A stretch of DNA of 30,951 bases from an uncultured Mycoplasmatota bacterium (GTDB lineage: Bacteria; Bacillota_I; Bacilli_A; RF39; UBA660). Positions 13,169 to 24,164 of the stretch are shown piece after piece; positions within the stretch are counted from its first letter, which is position 1, and each line of letters starts with the position of its first letter. The DNA lies in NCBI GenBank assembly GCA_900556025.1, contig USNG01000018.1, positions 1 through 30,951 of the forward strand, read 5' to 3'. A program made the position numbers and the translations under genes. Under the pieces are notes generated by a model. The model was not told where the DNA came from. It saw nothing but the letters and a program-made list of their open reading frames with translations, and ran no database searches.

Positions 13169-13194
13169 AAAGATCTGAAAAGATCTTTTTTATT
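13169..13194 (+). terminator. Bidirectional terminator after uppP
   Basis: 8-bp stem AAAGATCT/AGATCTTT (13169-13176, 13181-13188) with a GAAA tetraloop, T run on the plus strand and TTTATTTTTA on the minus strand. It serves uppP and the convergent membrane-protein gene. Confidence 0.8.
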
Positions 13195-13712
13195 TACATC
13201 TTATTAAAATACTTATTTTCTTTCCTATCATATAATAATTTAATGATTATATTACATAAAATAAATATTAATCCGATAGATAAATAAATATATCCAAATA
13301 ACTCAATATAAGTCCTTATATCATTTAAAAATAGATTATTACTATCAATTACATAAAACAATCTAAAAAGAGCTAAAAACGCTATCAAAAAGCTTAAACC
13401 AACATGTTTAAGTCCCCTATAAGTATTCTCCCTTATCAAAAATATACCAGTCATCAAAGTAAATATAAATAAACAAAGAACAATTATTACAACAAAATTA
13501 ACCCTTTCAGAAAAACCAATATATTCAAATAAATAATTAAATTTATCACTAACACCATACCTAGTAATATTATAATTTAACTTTTCACTATTAAAAATAT
13601 TAATCAAAAAACAATTAAAAGGTAAAACTAACAAAGCAATAGAATTAAATATCACTAATAACATAGTATTAATAGATATCATAAATTTTCTTAAATCACT
13701 TATATCTTCCAT
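13194..13712 (-). CDS. Unknown four-segment membrane protein
   Basis: A 172-residue protein with four hydrophobic segments (about 13-38, 72-92, 101-122 and 139-160) and a basic C-terminal tail. A loop of about 33 residues (SEKLNYNITRYGVSDKFNY) separates the first two. GAGGTTATT precedes the ATG. No family is recognised; it is convergent with uppP and divergent from the rhamnose operon, so context gives no role. Confidence 0.7.
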   Translation of the reverse strand: MEDISDLRKFMISINTMLLVIFNSIALLVLPFNCFLINIFNSEKLNYNITRYGVSDKFNYLFEYIGFSERVNFVVIIVLCLFIFTLMTGIFLIRENTYRGLKHVGLSFLIAFLALFRLFYVIDSNNLFLNDIRTYIELFGYIYLSIGLIFILCNIIIKLLYDRKENKYFNKM

Positions 13713-13778
13713 AATAACCTCAATTCATAAGTCATTATTATAATATACACACATTAAAAAGAAAATAAAAAAATTATC

Positions 13779-13795
13779 TGTTGACTTTTTCAACA
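13779..13795. promoter_or_regulatory. Perfect inverted repeat over the -35 of the rhamnose operon (candidate operator)
   Basis: TGTTGA, five bases, TCAACA: a perfect 6-bp inverted repeat, 17 bp in all, covering the -35 hexamer. Size and symmetry suit a dimeric XRE-type repressor, and the first gene of the operon carries such a DNA-binding domain. Binding would be expected to block the promoter. Inference from position only. Confidence 0.5.
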
Positions 13796-13810
13796 AAAAC
13801 ATGCTAAAAT
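13781..13810 (+). promoter_or_regulatory. Promoter of the dTDP-rhamnose operon
   Basis: TTGACT (13781-13786), 18-base spacer, TAAAAT (13805-13810), 19 bases before the start codon. Confidence 0.65.
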
Positions 13811-13829
13811 TTTTATAGAAGGTGAAAAA

Positions 13830-14930
13830 ATGGAAGAAAGTAATAGCATAATTGTTGGAAAAAAACTTAAAACAATGAGAGAAAAACTAAATTTGACTCA
13901 AGAACAAGTTGCAAAAGAACTCAACTTAGGAAGAGATGCTATAGTAAGAATTGAATCAGGTAAAAGAAAAATAACTTATGAAGAATTAAAACAATTTGCT
14001 AAAATATATAATTTTGATGAAAAAGAATTAACTGATAGTAAAAAAGAACAAGAAATAAAAGGAATAATATTGGCCGGTGGAAGTGGAACTAGACTTTACC
14101 CTATCACAAAAGGAACAAGCAAACAACTTATTCCAATCTATAATAAGCCTATGATATATTATCCATTATCAGTACTTATGCAAGCAGGAATCAAAGACAT
14201 ATTAGTTATAACTACAGAAGAAGAACAAAATAATTTCATAAGATTATTAAAAGATGGAAAACAATTTGGAATTAATTTAACATATAAAATTCAACAAAAA
14301 CCAGAAGGGCTTGCACAAGCATTAGTAATTGGAAAAGAATTTATTGGTGATTATCCTTGTGCAATGATACTAGGAGATAACATTTTTTATGGAAGTGGAA
14401 TTGAAAATGAATTATCACAAGCAATTAATAACTTAAGCGACGAAAAAGCAACAATTTTTGGTTATAAAGTAAAAGATCCACAAAGATTTGGAATAATGGA
14501 ACTAGGATACAACAATACAGTACTTAGTGTAGAAGAAAAACCAGCTAATCCAAAATCAGAATATGCAATCACTGGCTTGTACTTTTATCCAAAAGGGGTT
14601 TCAAATCTTGCTGAAACAATAAAGAAATCAGCAAGAGGAGAATATGAAATAACTACTTTAAATGAATTGTATTTAAAACAATTAAGATTAAAAGCAAGAC
14701 TTTTAGATGATAATTATGTTTGGCTAGACACCGGAACATTTGAAAGTATGCTAGATGCTTGTAACATGATAAAAGCATTAGAATTTAACAAAGATACTTT
14801 AATTTGCTCACCAGAAAAAATAGCTTTTGATAATGGATGGATTAATGAAGAACAATTAAAAGCTGAAGCTTTAGAGCAAAGCAAAAATGAATATGGAAAA
14901 AAATTATTAAAAATATTAGAAAGGAAATAG
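13830..14930 (+). CDS. rfbA: HTH(XRE)-glucose-1-phosphate thymidylyltransferase fusion
   Basis: A 366-residue two-domain protein. Residues 8-68 are an XRE/Cro-type helix-turn-helix (LKTMREKLNLTQEQVAKELNL, then IVRIESGKRKI); residues 77-366 are RfbA/RmlA, which joins glucose-1-phosphate and dTTP to dTDP-glucose, the first step to dTDP-L-rhamnose. GGSGTRLYP (83-91), QLIPIYNKPM (99-108), GDN (182-184) and EEKP (235-238) are intact. RfbA usually begins MKGIILAGG; here that Met is Ile76 (codon ATA), and no ATG or stop separates the domains, so the fusion is real in this sequence. AAGGTG sets the start. It heads the operon; an inverted repeat over its promoter suggests self-regulation. Confidence 0.93.
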   Translation: MEESNSIIVGKKLKTMREKLNLTQEQVAKELNLGRDAIVRIESGKRKITYEELKQFAKIYNFDEKELTDSKKEQEIKGIILAGGSGTRLYPITKGTSKQLIPIYNKPMIYYPLSVLMQAGIKDILVITTEEEQNNFIRLLKDGKQFGINLTYKIQQKPEGLAQALVIGKEFIGDYPCAMILGDNIFYGSGIENELSQAINNLSDEKATIFGYKVKDPQRFGIMELGYNNTVLSVEEKPANPKSEYAITGLYFYPKGVSNLAETIKKSARGEYEITTLNELYLKQLRLKARLLDDNYVWLDTGTFESMLDACNMIKALEFNKDTLICSPEKIAFDNGWINEEQLKAEALEQSKNEYGKKLLKILERK

Positions 14931-14934
14931 ATTT

Positions 14935-16383
14935 ATGAAAAAAATAAAAACAGAATTAGAAGATTGTTTTATAATTGAACCAGACAAATTTGGAGATTCA
15001 AGAGGTTATTTTTCACCCTACTTTATTCAAAAAAATTTTGATGATTTAGGATTTCAAAAAGTTGTTCAAACAAATAGAAGTAAAAGTTCAAAAGGAGTTT
15101 TAAGAGGATTACATTTTCAAAAAAATCCAAAATGTCAAGCTAAAATTGTTGAAGTTATCAAAGGAAGCGCTATTGATGTAGTTGTTGATATGAGAATTGA
15201 CTCACCTACATTTGGAAAATATACTGCAGTTAAATTAACAGAGGATAATAATAGACAATTATTTGTACCTAGAGGATTTGCACATGGTTTTGTAAGTTTA
15301 GAAGATGATACAATATTTCAATATTTAATAGATAATGATTACGCTCCTAAATTGGAGGCAGGAATCAAATGGAACGACTCAACAATAAATATAGATTGGC
15401 AAAGAATATTTAAAGAAAATAATATTGGTGAACCACTTTTATCAGATAAAGATAAAATTCATCCCTCTTTTAAAGAAAACAAAGTAGTTTTTAAAAGGGA
15501 ACAAGAAAAGTGCCTAATAACAGGTTATAATGGACAATTAGGATATGATATTAAACGTGAATTATTAAAAAATGGAATCAAAGAAGAAAATATTTTAGCA
15601 CTTGGAAGAGAAGAAATGGATATTACCAACCAAGAACAAGTTAATAGTGTTATAAACAATTTTAAACCAAATGTTATTTTTCATTGTGCAGCCTGGACAG
15701 CTGTAGATAAAGCCGAAGATATGGTCGAAGAAGCAACAAAAGTTAATGTTGATGGAACTAAAAATATTGTTGAAGCTTCAATAAATGTTGGAGCAAAAAT
15801 CGTTTATCTATCAACTGATTATGTTTTTGATGGACAAAAAGATGGAATTTATATTCCAGAAGATGAAACGAATCCACAAAATATTTATGGAAAGACTAAA
15901 TACTTAGGAGAAAAAGAAGTAGAAAAAAATCCAAATCATTTTATAGCACGTACATCTTGGGTTTTTGGAATAAATGGGAAAAATTTTGTAAAAACAATGC
16001 TTAATTTATCAAAAAATCATGAAGAATTAAATGTTGTTGATGATCAGATTGGTTCACCTACTTACACTGTAGATTTAGCACATATTTTATATGAATTATC
16101 TCAAACAGATAACTATGGAACTTACCATGTCACAAATGAAGAATTTTGTTCATGGGCTGAATTTGCAGAATATATATTCAAAATCAATGATATAAAAACA
16201 AAAATAAACAGAGTTACAACTGAAGAATATTTAAAATTAACAAATTCAAAACAAGCATATAGACCAAAAAATTCAAGATTAGACAAAAATGAATTATATG
16301 AAATTGGACTAGATCATATGCCATCATGGAAAGATGCAACAGAAAGATATTGTAGAGAATTAAGAATGAGGAGTACAAAATGA
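14935..16383 (+). CDS. rfbCD: Bifunctional dTDP-4-dehydrorhamnose 3,5-epimerase / reductase (RfbC-RfbD fusion)
   Basis: A 482-residue fusion carrying the third and fourth steps of dTDP-L-rhamnose synthesis. Residues 1-185 are the cupin-fold epimerase RfbC with GVLRGLHFQ (54-62; catalytic His60) and PRGFAHGF (112-119). Residues 192-482 are the reductase RfbD, with the nucleotide-binding GYNGQLG (197-203), STDYVFDG (293-300) and the Tyr318/Lys322 pair in YGKTK. The join is KREQEKCLITGYNG, without an internal Met, so reductase is made only as the fusion. AAGGAAATAGATTT precedes the ATG, 4 bases after the rfbA fusion gene; it overlaps rfbB by 4 bases. Similar fusions are known in Firmicutes. Confidence 0.93.
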   Translation: MKKIKTELEDCFIIEPDKFGDSRGYFSPYFIQKNFDDLGFQKVVQTNRSKSSKGVLRGLHFQKNPKCQAKIVEVIKGSAIDVVVDMRIDSPTFGKYTAVKLTEDNNRQLFVPRGFAHGFVSLEDDTIFQYLIDNDYAPKLEAGIKWNDSTINIDWQRIFKENNIGEPLLSDKDKIHPSFKENKVVFKREQEKCLITGYNGQLGYDIKRELLKNGIKEENILALGREEMDITNQEQVNSVINNFKPNVIFHCAAWTAVDKAEDMVEEATKVNVDGTKNIVEASINVGAKIVYLSTDYVFDGQKDGIYIPEDETNPQNIYGKTKYLGEKEVEKNPNHFIARTSWVFGINGKNFVKTMLNLSKNHEELNVVDDQIGSPTYTVDLAHILYELSQTDNYGTYHVTNEEFCSWAEFAEYIFKINDIKTKINRVTTEEYLKLTNSKQAYRPKNSRLDKNELYEIGLDHMPSWKDATERYCRELRMRSTK

Positions 16384-17381
16384 AATTTTTAGTAACAGGT
16401 GGAGCTGGATTTATTGGAAGCAATTACTTACATTATGTAGTAAATAAATATCCAAAAGATAAATTTATTTGTATAGATGCATTAACTTATGCAGGAAATT
16501 ATAATAATATTAAAGAATTAGAAAAGAAAAATAACTTTAAATTTGTTAAAGGAGATATTAGAGACAAAGATTTAATAGAAAAATTATTCGAAAAAGAAAA
16601 ATTTAATATAGTAGTAAATTTTGCAGCAGAAAGTCATGTAGATAACTCAATAAAGAACCCTAATTTATTTGCTGACACAAATGTTTTAGGAACAATGACT
16701 TTAATGAATGCGTGCGTAAAGTATGGAATCAAAAGATATCATCAAGTATCAACTGATGAAGTTTATGGCGATCTTCCATTAGATAGACCTGATTTAAAGT
16801 TTAATGAAACAACACCAATTCACACATCTAGTCCCTACTCAGCTTCAAAAGCAGGAGCTGATTTACAAGTATTAGCCTATGCTAGAACTTATAAATTACC
16901 AATAACTATATCAAGATGTTCAAATAATTATGGAGCATATCAATTTCCAGAAAAATTAATACCAGTAGTAATTTCAAAAGCATTAAATAATGAAAATATA
17001 CCAGTATATGGTACTGGAGAAAATGTTAGAGATTGGATACATGTACATGATCATAATGTTGGAGTTGATTTAATTATAAGAAAAGGAAAAGATGGTGAAA
17101 TTTACAATCTCGGAGGACATTCAGAAAGAACAAACTTAGAAGTTGTAAAAACTATACTAAAACAATTAGGAAAACCTGAATCATTAATTACATTTGTCAA
17201 AGATAGACCAGGACATGACTTAAGATATGCAATAGATTCAACAAAAGTTGAAAAAGAACTTGGCTGGACAAGAACATACACATTCGAAAATGGCATTAAA
17301 GAAACAATAGACTGGTACATCAATAATAAAGAATGGATTGAAAATATTAAATCAGGAAAATACAAAGAAGCATACAAATAA
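16380..17381 (+). CDS. rfbB: dTDP-glucose 4,6-dehydratase
   Basis: A 333-residue short-chain dehydrogenase-type enzyme that turns dTDP-glucose into dTDP-4-keto-6-deoxyglucose, the second step to dTDP-L-rhamnose. The NAD-binding GGAGFIG (7-13), the STDEVYGD stretch with Thr125, Asp126, Glu127, and YSASK (153-157; Tyr153, Lys157) are complete. The start overlaps the stop of the epimerase/reductase gene as ATGA, so translation is coupled. It is the last gene of the operon, followed at once by a strong terminator. All four activities are present, so the pathway is complete. Confidence 0.95.
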   Translation: MKFLVTGGAGFIGSNYLHYVVNKYPKDKFICIDALTYAGNYNNIKELEKKNNFKFVKGDIRDKDLIEKLFEKEKFNIVVNFAAESHVDNSIKNPNLFADTNVLGTMTLMNACVKYGIKRYHQVSTDEVYGDLPLDRPDLKFNETTPIHTSSPYSASKAGADLQVLAYARTYKLPITISRCSNNYGAYQFPEKLIPVVISKALNNENIPVYGTGENVRDWIHVHDHNVGVDLIIRKGKDGEIYNLGGHSERTNLEVVKTILKQLGKPESLITFVKDRPGHDLRYAIDSTKVEKELGWTRTYTFENGIKETIDWYINNKEWIENIKSGKYKEAYK

Positions 17382-20494: not shown

Positions 20495-22963
20495 TTAATA
20501 CCTTTTTTTAGTTATTTTATGATAAAACTTAAAAAATATTGGATTAGGATCCTTTCTATCCCAAAAATACCATACTTTTGCAGTAAATAATTCTTTTAGC
20601 CATTTAAATAAACTTACTTCTTTAGTTTTTACTCTGTCTTGAAAATCAACAAATTCAACAATTGCTCTAAAACCTTCAAATTTTTTAAAACAATTTTTAG
20701 TTTTTTTATTATCTAACATACATTCAGACCAAAGATAAGGTAAATTCATACCAGCTTTAGTAGATGCCCAACTCCATGTTGAATTTCTAAAATTAATTTC
20801 TAAAAAATAATAATTATCATTCTTGTCAACTAGAAATTCAACAGAAAAAATACCATCAAATCCTATCATTTCAAACATTTTTGATAATTTTGATTCAAGT
20901 TCAGGATGAAATGGAGGAACAACCTTCATATAATTACTATATGCACCTTTTTTAACATATAAATAATCAGATGATATTGTAAACACAACATTTTTTCCGT
21001 GATTCACCGAAAATCCATCATAACAAAGTTCATTCTTTTTATCAATATATTCTTGTAATAGAATTTCTTTTGATTTTATATTACTTAAAGCTTTTTTCAA
21101 TTCCTTTTCGTTCTCACAAACATATGAATCAGCTTTCCAATGATCTTTAGTAGAAATAATTGCTTTAGTTAAAACTGGATATTTAACATCTTTAGGAATT
21201 TTCTTATCTCTAATTACCCAACTTTTAGCAATATTGATACCACACTTTTTAGCTAATAAATTTATCTCATTTTTATTCATATATTTTGTAACTCTGCCTT
21301 GTTCATGAGCATTAAAGAAAATAAATTTATCTTTTAAAATATCATAATTATTATCTAATATACTCGTCATTTGATCATCACATGTAAAAACAAAAGGTTT
21401 AACATCACCAAAATTACCATATTCTTTAATTAATAAATCTAAAGCCTCATCAAAAGAATCAACAAGATGTAATTTTGATATATATTTACTTTTAGATGCA
21501 AATGCAAAGTCTCCTCTTTTTATAATAGCAATGAGTCTTATATTCTTTTCACCCAAACTTCTAATTAATCCTAATGGATTATAAAATTCTTCTCCTATCA
21601 CAATATAGATTTTATCATTCATATTATCACTCTCTTTCAATATTCTTTTGATATCAATAATTTTATAATATATTATTAAAAAGTTTTGTATTACTAAAGC
21701 TATCAAAATAGCAAACAAGTCTATTCTTCTAACTAATAAATAGGATACTAACATATATATTACATTTGATATAGCAACAATTATAGTTTCATTTTTTACC
21801 CTATTCATAGATTGATAAAAAGGATGAAGAGTCGTATAAGACAAAGAAATAGCATTAATAGGCAAATATATTAATAAAATATACCACTTATCAGAATACA
21901 TCTCTCCATAAAAAATATTCAACCACAAAGGAGATGTAATACCAATTAATAATGCAACTGGTACAGTAAACTTTAACATAGTATTTTTTATCTTAACGAA
22001 AATTTTTAAAGCTCTTCTATTTTCATTTTTTGCATTCAGTTCAGAAAATTGAGGTAAAATTGATTGTTGCAACGGAGATGAAACTTTATTCAAAATCGAA
22101 CCAAACTGCTTGAAAACCTTAAAAACTGATACTAAATCAGTACTCAAAAAAGATATAAATATCATATCAAAATAATTAACAGGAATATCAAGAATACATC
22201 CAAATGTACACCACAATGTATAACTAACAAAATCTTTTGAATCATCGGGAAATTTGCTCTTAAGTATTTTATATTTAGAATAAATCTTTTTGTAAGTCAC
22301 AAACGCAAATATCACTAATAGAATATTTCCAATAATATCGGAAATACAATAAATTATAACAACATTTACCAGTGAAATATTTGAATTAAGTAAGAACATA
22401 ACTAAAATTGATACAAGTTTAATAAATGCCGTAATAAACTTTTGTAACGCGACCAAATTAAACTTATCCATAACTCTCAGCATTGCAGTTGGTGTTCCAG
22501 AAAAATGTGAAAATATAGTTACAGAAAATATCTGAGCACAAATTATTAATTCAGGTGACCAAGAAAATAAATGTCCAACTAATGGTGCTAAAAACAAAGC
22601 AACTAGTCCACCTAAAAAAGCAGTAGATAAATCAATTATTGTTCCAAGTTTTATGTAGCCAGCTAATTTTTCTATATCATTCTCAATTAAAGCTTTTTGA
22701 CCATACTGAATGGTACTTTTCCAAGCTTGAATATTCAATGCAACATCAATAATTAACATATATGTTTGAGCTAGAACTAAAACTCCATAATCATAACTAC
22801 CTAAAAATTTAATTAATAAAAATGTTACAATCAATCCAATTAAAGAAGCACCAGTATCACCAAAAAAAGCCCACAATGAATTTTTAAAAAGATTTTTCCA
22901 AAAAATATTGCTAAAAATTTTGTCTTTATAAAAATAATATTTATGTTTAATTTTTTTTATCAT
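20495..22963 (-). CDS. Polysaccharide flippase (Wzx/MATE-like) fused to an ATP-grasp ligase
   Basis: An 822-residue protein. Residues 1-447 form a multi-segment membrane flippase of the polysaccharide-transport family (NSLWAFFGDTGASLIGLIVTFLL, SSPLQQSILPQFSELNA), which moves lipid-linked oligosaccharide across the membrane. Residues 448-822 are a cytoplasmic ATP-grasp enzyme (YPVLTKAIIST, ILLQEYIDKKNE, then the Mg-binding FDGIFSVEFLVDKNDNYYFLEINFRNS), a carboxylate-amine or peptide-type ligase; the substrate is unknown. The join contains a Met codon at 21622, preceded by AGAGAG and out-of-frame TGA TAA, so an ATP-grasp-only product may also be made. ATG 22963 follows GAGGTG and lies one base after the polymerase stop. 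Confidence 0.88.
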   Translation of the reverse strand: MIKKIKHKYYFYKDKIFSNIFWKNLFKNSLWAFFGDTGASLIGLIVTFLLIKFLGSYDYGVLVLAQTYMLIIDVALNIQAWKSTIQYGQKALIENDIEKLAGYIKLGTIIDLSTAFLGGLVALFLAPLVGHLFSWSPELIICAQIFSVTIFSHFSGTPTAMLRVMDKFNLVALQKFITAFIKLVSILVMFLLNSNISLVNVVIIYCISDIIGNILLVIFAFVTYKKIYSKYKILKSKFPDDSKDFVSYTLWCTFGCILDIPVNYFDMIFISFLSTDLVSVFKVFKQFGSILNKVSSPLQQSILPQFSELNAKNENRRALKIFVKIKNTMLKFTVPVALLIGITSPLWLNIFYGEMYSDKWYILLIYLPINAISLSYTTLHPFYQSMNRVKNETIIVAISNVIYMLVSYLLVRRIDLFAILIALVIQNFLIIYYKIIDIKRILKESDNMNDKIYIVIGEEFYNPLGLIRSLGEKNIRLIAIIKRGDFAFASKSKYISKLHLVDSFDEALDLLIKEYGNFGDVKPFVFTCDDQMTSILDNNYDILKDKFIFFNAHEQGRVTKYMNKNEINLLAKKCGINIAKSWVIRDKKIPKDVKYPVLTKAIISTKDHWKADSYVCENEKELKKALSNIKSKEILLQEYIDKKNELCYDGFSVNHGKNVVFTISSDYLYVKKGAYSNYMKVVPPFHPELESKLSKMFEMIGFDGIFSVEFLVDKNDNYYFLEINFRNSTWSWASTKAGMNLPYLWSECMLDNKKTKNCFKKFEGFRAIVEFVDFQDRVKTKEVSLFKWLKELFTAKVWYFWDRKDPNPIFFKFYHKITKKRY

Positions 22964-22964
22964 T

Positions 22965-24164
22965 TTACACCTCAATCTTTTTGTCACTAAAAAAATATGA
23001 AACAGCAATAAAACTAAACATCAACAATAAATTATAATAATGACCTATTCTAACGCCTTGAATAAAGAATAATAATATAAAAAACAACCCATAGTAATTC
23101 TTATTCTTAATATATCTAATAAAATATTTTAAAAGATATGCAAATATATACAAAATTCCTACTATACCAAATTCAGAATAAATTCTTATAAAAATTGATG
23201 CAGCATCAACCTCATTCACATAATTTTTAACGACAGGATACATTTTATCAATATAAAATTTATAATAGAATCTATGTGAGTACATTCCTGTTCCAAAATA
23301 ATAACCATCCTTAATTTTACTATGAGCAACTCTAAAATTTGAAATAATTGCAAAGCCAGTAGTATCTTCACCCTTCATAGAATTAGGATTAACAAGAGAA
23401 CCAATCTTATATATAGAAGTTTTTATAAAATCAGGTTTAAACAAACATAAAGAAACAATTCCAATAATTAATAAAGAAAACGTGACAATCGTTTTTTTAA
23501 AATTCTTTTCTTTAAACAAATATAATAGAAAAACTAAAAATAAAGAAAAATATACTATAGTAGAAAAAGTCAATAAAGCAAAAACTAAAATAATAAGAGT
23601 TTTATACCAAGCATAATTTCTATTTTTTTCCAAACCAATATATAACCCCGAAGACAATATGCCACATAAGTGAGCCGGTTCGGCATATAAAGAATGAAAA
23701 CGATTTTCCATTAAATAATTACCATTAGTTTTAAAACCATATAATGTTATATCGTACAAATATTTAAAATCTAACTGATAAGAAATAAACTGCACTAAAC
23801 CATAAACTGCCAATATTAAAGCAGATACATATAAAACTTTTTTAACTCTATCAACTGTAGTTTCTCCAATATACATATATAAAGCAAAGAATTGTATTAA
23901 AAAATATACAACACTTTTAATAGTGGAAAAATCAAATTTATTTATAAAAGTTACAAGTAAAATATATATAAGAATTATAGTCATTTTTTTATCAAAAAAC
24001 AATATTTTTCTCTTGTAAAGCATTTCAGCCAAATATAAACAACAAAGGAATAGTATCAAAATTTGAAAAATAGTGATAGGTAAAAATCCAAAATGACCTG
24101 CATCTTGTAATATGATTGCCATAATTAAAATAAAATCCTTAAGTCTATTTAAACTATTTTTCAC
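22965..24164 (-). CDS. Wzy-like O-antigen/polysaccharide polymerase
   Basis: About 399 residues, with about ten to twelve hydrophobic segments and a large loop near the C-terminus (FRVAHSKIKDGYYFGTGMYSHRFYYKFYIDKMYP) between segments, followed by FGIVGILYIFAYLLKYFIRY. This layout, and SLYAEPAHLCGILSSG in the middle, suits O-antigen polymerases, which join lipid-linked repeat units outside the membrane. Wzy proteins are too diverse for a firm call by eye. The start is taken as GTG 24164 because GAGGTG stands 5 bases upstream; GTG 24179 is also in frame and would overlap the previous gene. Confidence 0.75.
   Translation of the reverse strand: MKNSLNRLKDFILIMAIILQDAGHFGFLPITIFQILILFLCCLYLAEMLYKRKILFFDKKMTIILIYILLVTFINKFDFSTIKSVVYFLIQFFALYMYIGETTVDRVKKVLYVSALILAVYGLVQFISYQLDFKYLYDITLYGFKTNGNYLMENRFHSLYAEPAHLCGILSSGLYIGLEKNRNYAWYKTLIILVFALLTFSTIVYFSLFLVFLLYLFKEKNFKKTIVTFSLLIIGIVSLCLFKPDFIKTSIYKIGSLVNPNSMKGEDTTGFAIISNFRVAHSKIKDGYYFGTGMYSHRFYYKFYIDKMYPVVKNYVNEVDAASIFIRIYSEFGIVGILYIFAYLLKYFIRYIKNKNYYGLFFILLFFIQGVRIGHYYNLLLMFSFIAVSYFFSDKKIEV

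Follow-up and report, generated by a model that had tools for sequence, protein, structure and literature searches.

In the 30,951-nucleotide stretch of DNA analysed here (the window), one gene encodes an XRE-type helix-turn-helix (HTH) fused to RmlA (RfbA), the enzyme that begins the synthesis of rhamnose, a sugar of the cell surface. The question that this locus raises is why such an enzyme would carry a DNA-binding domain. Our reading, at a probability of roughly 0.74 and from sequence comparisons, is that the product of this gene is a working RmlA and also the repressor of its own rmlA-rmlCD-rmlB operon. The genes and domains concerned are as follows.

13194..13712, minus strand: divergent membrane-protein gene (open reading frame, Pfam)
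13830..14930, plus strand: HTH-RmlA fusion gene, 366 amino acids, single open reading frame
13866..14027, plus strand: XRE helix-turn-helix, HTH_3, residues 13-66 (Pfam)
14058..14918, plus strand: RmlA domain, TIGR01207, residues 77-363 (NCBIfam)
14935..16383, plus strand: RmlC-RmlD fusion gene, the next gene of the operon (open reading frame, Pfam, NCBIfam)
16380..17381, plus strand: RmlB gene, overlapping the preceding stop codon (open reading frame, Pfam, NCBIfam)

The original prediction held that an XRE HTH and a complete RfbA lie in one frame, and profile searches bear this out. In particular, HTH_3 matches residues 13-66 (E 2.6e-13; 50.2 bits against a gathering score of 23), NTP_transferase matches residues 77-313, and the NCBIfam model for RmlA, TIGR01207, scores 394.3 bits (cut-off 360.65) and is covered from position 1 to 285 of 286. 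An AlphaFold2 model of the fusion protein, built with 34 aligned sequences, has a mean pLDDT of 86.5, with five helices within residues 3-68 and low confidence at residues 85-91; a fold search returned solved RmlA structures on top, the best being 6n0u (1.5 Å rmsd, 51% identity). The codon at the usual RmlA start is indeed ATA (14055-14057), as had been proposed. Methionine occurs in the fusion protein at residues 1, 16 and 108 and then at later ones, and within the first 110 codons TTG appears only at 22 and 81, the latter within the LAGG motif; among these we saw no good start from which RmlA could be made alone. Note, though, that among the 120 homologues listed the residue at the old start is Ile in 40, Val in 33, Met in 30, Leu in 8, Thr in 3, Ala in 2, Phe in 2, Tyr in 1 and Cys in 1, so that 30 of 120 keep the methionine.

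Might the fusion be an artefact of assembly or of a frameshift? A database search for the two-domain architecture, which had been suggested as a check, found both the HTH and the NTP_transferase domain in 120 of 120 homologues among the matches listed (8000 were scored), the closest being 98% identical to the fusion protein and the next 67%, and in 13 further public genomes the fusion lies in one open frame. These findings rule out an artefact. Separate HTH and rfbA genes in relatives, which would have told against a genuine fusion, were likewise not seen: near stand-alone rmlA we found no separate XRE gene of the fusion type in the loci surveyed (L001-L126, with flanks of differing length), and we rejected a separate XRE gene adjoining rmlA as the ancestral state since these loci hold no such case. 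Fusion loci were found in 6 of 385 sampled genomes from the order of G001, in 2 of 336 from the order of G003, in 8 of 291 genomes from the family of G001, and in G002 and G004 (the samples overlap); with so few sampled genomes having it, the fusion is a minority form. Four of the metagenome-assembled genomes (MAGs) with fusions are assigned to Bacilli (L001, L002), Clostridia (L003) and Tenericutes (L004). Within the open-licence PubMed Central literature that we searched, no HTH-RmlA fusion was found in print and the family appears undescribed; accounts may exist outside that scope.

The recognition helix of the fused HTH is nearly invariant across 121 sequences (G34 in 93%, R35 in 99%, D36 in 92%, A37 in 94%, I38 in 92%, R40 in 91% and E42 in 99%). 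Moreover, dN/dS across the HTH is about 0.10-0.16 in five pairs of sequences, values that are rough because dS exceeds 1 in four of the five; by this measure the fused HTH is under purifying selection.

What might the HTH bind? Between the divergent membrane-protein gene and the fusion gene lies a palindrome that overlaps a candidate promoter.

13779..13795, no strand: predicted palindromic operator TGTTGACTTTTTCAACA, consensus TGTTGA-N5-TCAACA (motif comparison)
13781..13786, plus strand: -35 hexamer TTGACT, within the left half-site (consensus match)
13805..13810, plus strand: -10 hexamer TAAAAT, with an 18-nt spacer and TG ahead of it (consensus match)
13819..13824, plus strand: AAGGTG, likely ribosome-binding site of the fusion gene (read from sequence)

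The palindrome TGTTGACTTTTTCAACA ends 34 bp 5' of the fusion ATG and contains the -35 box. We compared 14 fusion loci, the window and 13 others, using the search pattern TGTTG-N7-CAACA. Because the pattern was fixed after the window site and hints in a few relatives had been viewed, the counts at fusion loci are not a blind test; the loci are also related and thus not independent. With that reading of the counts, the palindrome lies within a promoter in all 14 fusion operons, 12 times exactly and twice with one mismatch. The 12 exact palindromes begin 48-58 nt 5' of the fusion start codon. One of the two mismatched sites (L089) is at -97 from the fusion start codon, and the other (L001) is in the promoter of an operon whose first gene is a stand-alone rmlA and whose second is the fusion. 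Among shuffled 150-nt upstream regions the exact motif occurred in 6 of 70,000. Mean identity between fusion loci is 0.89 in the half-sites, compared with 0.37 over the 40 nt upstream and 0.49 over the 20 nt that follow.

An automatic search placed a -10 element after a 17-18-nt spacer from TTGAxx in 11 of 14 fusion promoters; in L089, L093 and L120 the automatic pick was off, and weaker boxes could be seen by eye near the usual place. The promoter match in the window is by itself not significant, as shuffled sequences average 1.4 such matches. With a predicted transcript start near 13817, the palindrome in the window is centred at about -30, a position that fits a repressor site: a protein bound there, over the -35 box, would block polymerase. 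Thus, the XRE domain of the fusion has a predicted cognate palindromic operator.

The same geometry bears on the idea that the HTH binds the operator without repressing, either activating transcription or tethering the enzyme to DNA. XRE proteins can act as activators, but a protein bound over the -35 box would stand in the way of polymerase, and we consider this idea unlikely. Less likely still is a reading of the palindrome as a terminator or RNA hairpin, with the HTH as a relic. A run of T follows the palindrome in some loci (L004, L090), but it is absent in the window, L003 and L091, the upstream neighbour in the window is divergent, and a scan of 13700-13860 gave no terminator-like site; arm sequence and spacing to the -10 element are both conserved, and stand-alone XRE genes have the same arms in front of them (see below). 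On these grounds we disfavour a terminator or RNA element.

Autorepression by the fusion protein would proceed as follows. Pairs of HTH domains, formed within the RmlA oligomer, would occupy the palindrome and shut RNA polymerase out of the promoter, and transcription would drop as the HTH-RmlA enzyme builds up, making of the protein at least a homeostat for rmlA-rmlCD-rmlB. Less certainly, a ligand in the RmlA part might alter DNA binding. One point speaks against autorepression: a tetramer would have HTH pairs for two sites, and a second site with at most one mismatch within the operon is lacking in 13 of 14 fusion loci, the one exception being L118 (at +1943). A second operator for the tetramer was accordingly dropped as a candidate.

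The genes that follow the fusion under the predicted operator make up the rest of the dTDP-rhamnose pathway, the order in the window being rmlA (fusion)-rmlCD-rmlB. RmlC and RmlD form one 482-amino-acid protein in the window, as identified with Pfam and NCBIfam. An rmlD motif is encoded 3' of the fusion in 14 of 14 loci, in 11 of them within an open reading frame of 479-510 codons; these lengths suggest that RmlC and RmlD are also fused in 10 of the 13 other loci, Pfam having been run for the window only. At L001 (5036-7113), a stand-alone rmlA and the HTH-rmlA form a tandem within one operon with one predicted operator.

We also asked where else the palindrome occurs. Thirteen fusion genomes contain 20 exact sites in total, 0-3 each, compared with 26 for a reversed control pattern; with no excess across the genome, it is the location of the sites that carries the argument. 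Twelve of the 20 are in rml promoters, 11 of them fusion promoters and one that of a stand-alone rmlA (G309). The other eight all fall inside reading frames, seven of which are long and one (G425:C41) short and uncertain, and a wider regulon was rejected for this reason. With its site at a stand-alone rmlA, G309 may have two loci under a single protein, unless its MAG bin is mixed. Among the stand-alone rmlA genes, 97 in all, a site (at most one mismatch) lies within 150 nt of just two, L143 (in G309) and L001 (in G001), and both of these genomes also encode a fusion; the other genomes were searched for a fusion in part. Two more of the 97 have a site about 300 nt away.

If the fused HTH reads this operator, then stand-alone XRE proteins with the same recognition helix might be expected to have it too. 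We took all 17 HTH-only loci found among the matches listed for the same order, with the pattern fixed before the test: 12 have the helix GRDA[IV], three (L170, L171, L174) have another helix, and two (L172, L173) were left out. The 12 GRDA[IV] proteins are small (109-122 amino acids), and the palindrome lies 5' of all 12 genes, exactly in 11 (at -50 to -64) and with one mismatch in the 12th. The best sites of the other-helix genes have 2 (L170), 1 (L171) and 4 (L174) mismatches. The pairing of helix and operator thus recurs where the surrounding genes differ. Downstream of 8 of the 12 there is a coding sequence with an HExxH motif, and two neighbours that were tested proved to be Peptidase_M78 plus Fic. 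At these two loci (L148, 838-2549; L151, 368-2117), a small XRE gene is followed by a gene for a fusion of Peptidase_M78 (IrrE-like) and Fic, with the same palindrome in front; the pair is possibly a toxin-antitoxin or regulatory module. These XRE proteins share with the fusion the recognition helix, the operator and a similar distance to the start codon, but they have no enzyme domain and different neighbours. A relation between fusion and stand-alone XRE of mutual exclusion was dropped for want of cases.

The existence of such stand-alone proteins in the same order, with the same helix and operator, is also what makes it conceivable that the palindrome is maintained as the site of a different XRE protein, the fused HTH being a passenger. 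However, not one of the 20 exact sites found across the 13 fusion genomes precedes a stand-alone XRE gene (a diverged operator would escape this count), the stand-alone rmlA genes of G201 and G266, genomes that do have such an XRE, are without the site, and the HTH is under purifying selection. We regard a passenger HTH as quite improbable, a little more so than an HTH that binds without repressing.

Does the fusion still act as an enzyme? Arg16, Lys26, Gln83, Asp111, Lys163 and Asp226 (Salmonella enterica numbering), which we take to be the catalytic residues of RmlA, are kept in the window and in 129 of 129 fusion domains; they are also intact in the L001 fusion, which sits beside a stand-alone rmlA. 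Active-site residues and a DNA-binding domain are thus present in one chain. The fusion is probably a working RmlA and HTH-RmlA proteins probably still do both jobs, as far as conserved residues can tell.

The allosteric site is another matter. According to one report, RmlA is feedback-inhibited by dTDP-rhamnose at a site between subunits, and mutants of S. enterica RmlA at Glu256 are less sensitive to dTDP-rhamnose (PMC10375476). The corresponding residue is Lys330 in the window, and at least 124 of 129 fusions have another residue (Ile, Lys, Ala, Val, Leu, Tyr, Met or Phe) in place of Glu256; by this one residue, the fusions lack the glutamate of the classical feedback site. All 55 stand-alone RmlAs that fall outside the clade with the fusions have Glu at this position, and within that clade 42 stand-alone RmlAs have Gln (22), Ala (8), Glu (5) or others (7). 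From this distribution, the classical dTDP-rhamnose site is altered partly across the clade and further in the fusions. Other positions of the allosteric pocket vary in stand-alone RmlAs too.

It had been proposed that the protein is both a metabolic sensor and a repressor. The repressor half has good computational support as a prediction for its own promoter, given the conserved palindrome over the -35 box, the stand-alone XREs with the same palindrome and the intact active site; the sensor half is less certain, and the replacement of Glu256 in at least 124 of 129 fusions weakens the idea of dTDP-rhamnose sensing. A metabolite-gated repressor, in which dTDP-rhamnose, dTDP-glucose, dTTP or glucose-1-phosphate in the RmlA part sets HTH binding, would be a stronger form of autorepression and not its opposite. 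Enzyme-linked sensing is a known pattern in NadR and BirA, and a changed residue at position 256 is what one would expect of a retuned site. Against gating, loss of Glu256 speaks against the usual dTDP-rhamnose contact, and the stand-alone XREs, which have the same operator and no RmlA, imply that RmlA may be dispensable for operator binding itself. With the feedback site between subunits (PMC10375476), ligand and oligomer would be linked. We hold gating to be plausible at somewhat less than even odds.

NadR combines an XRE-like HTH, an NMN adenylyltransferase and a kinase, and BirA and PutA are working metabolic enzymes whose own DNA-binding domains repress the genes of their pathways. To our knowledge, enzymes with their own DNA-binding domain that repress their own operon are few. 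HTH-RmlA resembles NadR in having an HTH ahead of a nucleotidylyltransferase, and NadR represses its own pathway; NadR differs in its unrelated nucleotidylyltransferase family, its pathway, its extra kinase domain and its known NAD-linked sensing. BirA and PutA differ in being other enzymes, with other DNA-binding folds or families and a known sensing mechanism. HTH-RmlA would thus work like these three in kind, with repression here being predicted, and belongs to a different family. Ordinary RmlA/RfbA shares the complete RmlA domain with the fusion, whereas the fusion has the additional N-terminal HTH and the replaced Glu256. HTH-RmlA proteins seem to form a new enzyme family whose members would double as their own repressors.

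Like HTH-RmlA, BzdR consists of an XRE domain, a linker and an enzyme-derived domain, in its case shikimate-kinase-like; BzdR is reported to have lost enzyme activity and to sense benzoyl-CoA, and the step from enzyme to regulator was approached with synthetic chimeras (PMC3602430). The catalytic residues of HTH-RmlA, in contrast, are intact in 129 of 129 fusions. The HTH-RmlA family offers a defined predicted operator, a promoter geometry, a related stand-alone regulator that shares this operator and sister RmlAs lacking the HTH, which makes the same question testable with natural proteins. It also offers a testable rule for setting the supply of rhamnose to surface polysaccharides in gut bacteria known mainly from metagenomes.

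How did the fusion arise? In a quick tree of 150 RmlA domains, 53 sampled fusions and 42 stand-alone forms fall in one clade (SH-aLRT 99). The fusion or stand-alone label needs at least seven changes on this tree, three of which are forced by starred branches; on this tree, the HTH domain is gained or lost more than once. The fusion HTH and its operator probably derive from the stand-alone XRE lineage found beside M78-Fic genes. A broader and slightly more tentative proposal than gating is that in HTH-RmlA a single protein controls dTDP-rhamnose: feedback would have shifted from the allosteric site to the promoter, ligand occupancy of the RmlA oligomer would set transcription of the operon, and the protein would be a natural, catalytically intact intermediate between enzyme and transcription factor that arose or disappeared on more than one occasion.

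Three smaller observations concern individual sequences. P0088 has an HTH and linker in common with the L092 fusion and an RmlA domain that groups with the stand-alone L143 (G309), a pattern possibly due to recombination between two rmlA copies or to mixed assembly. L089 (helix ISRDAIIRLE) and L171 (ISRNAIINIE) both have Ser for Gly34 and the half-site AAACA for CAACA; these two cases are a hint only that the helix change and the half-site change are linked. Finally, the window encodes at 20495-23008 (minus strand) an 837-amino-acid protein whose C-terminal part is a weak match to ATP-grasp models and whose first half, by eye, resembles a polysaccharide flippase, itself an odd fusion.
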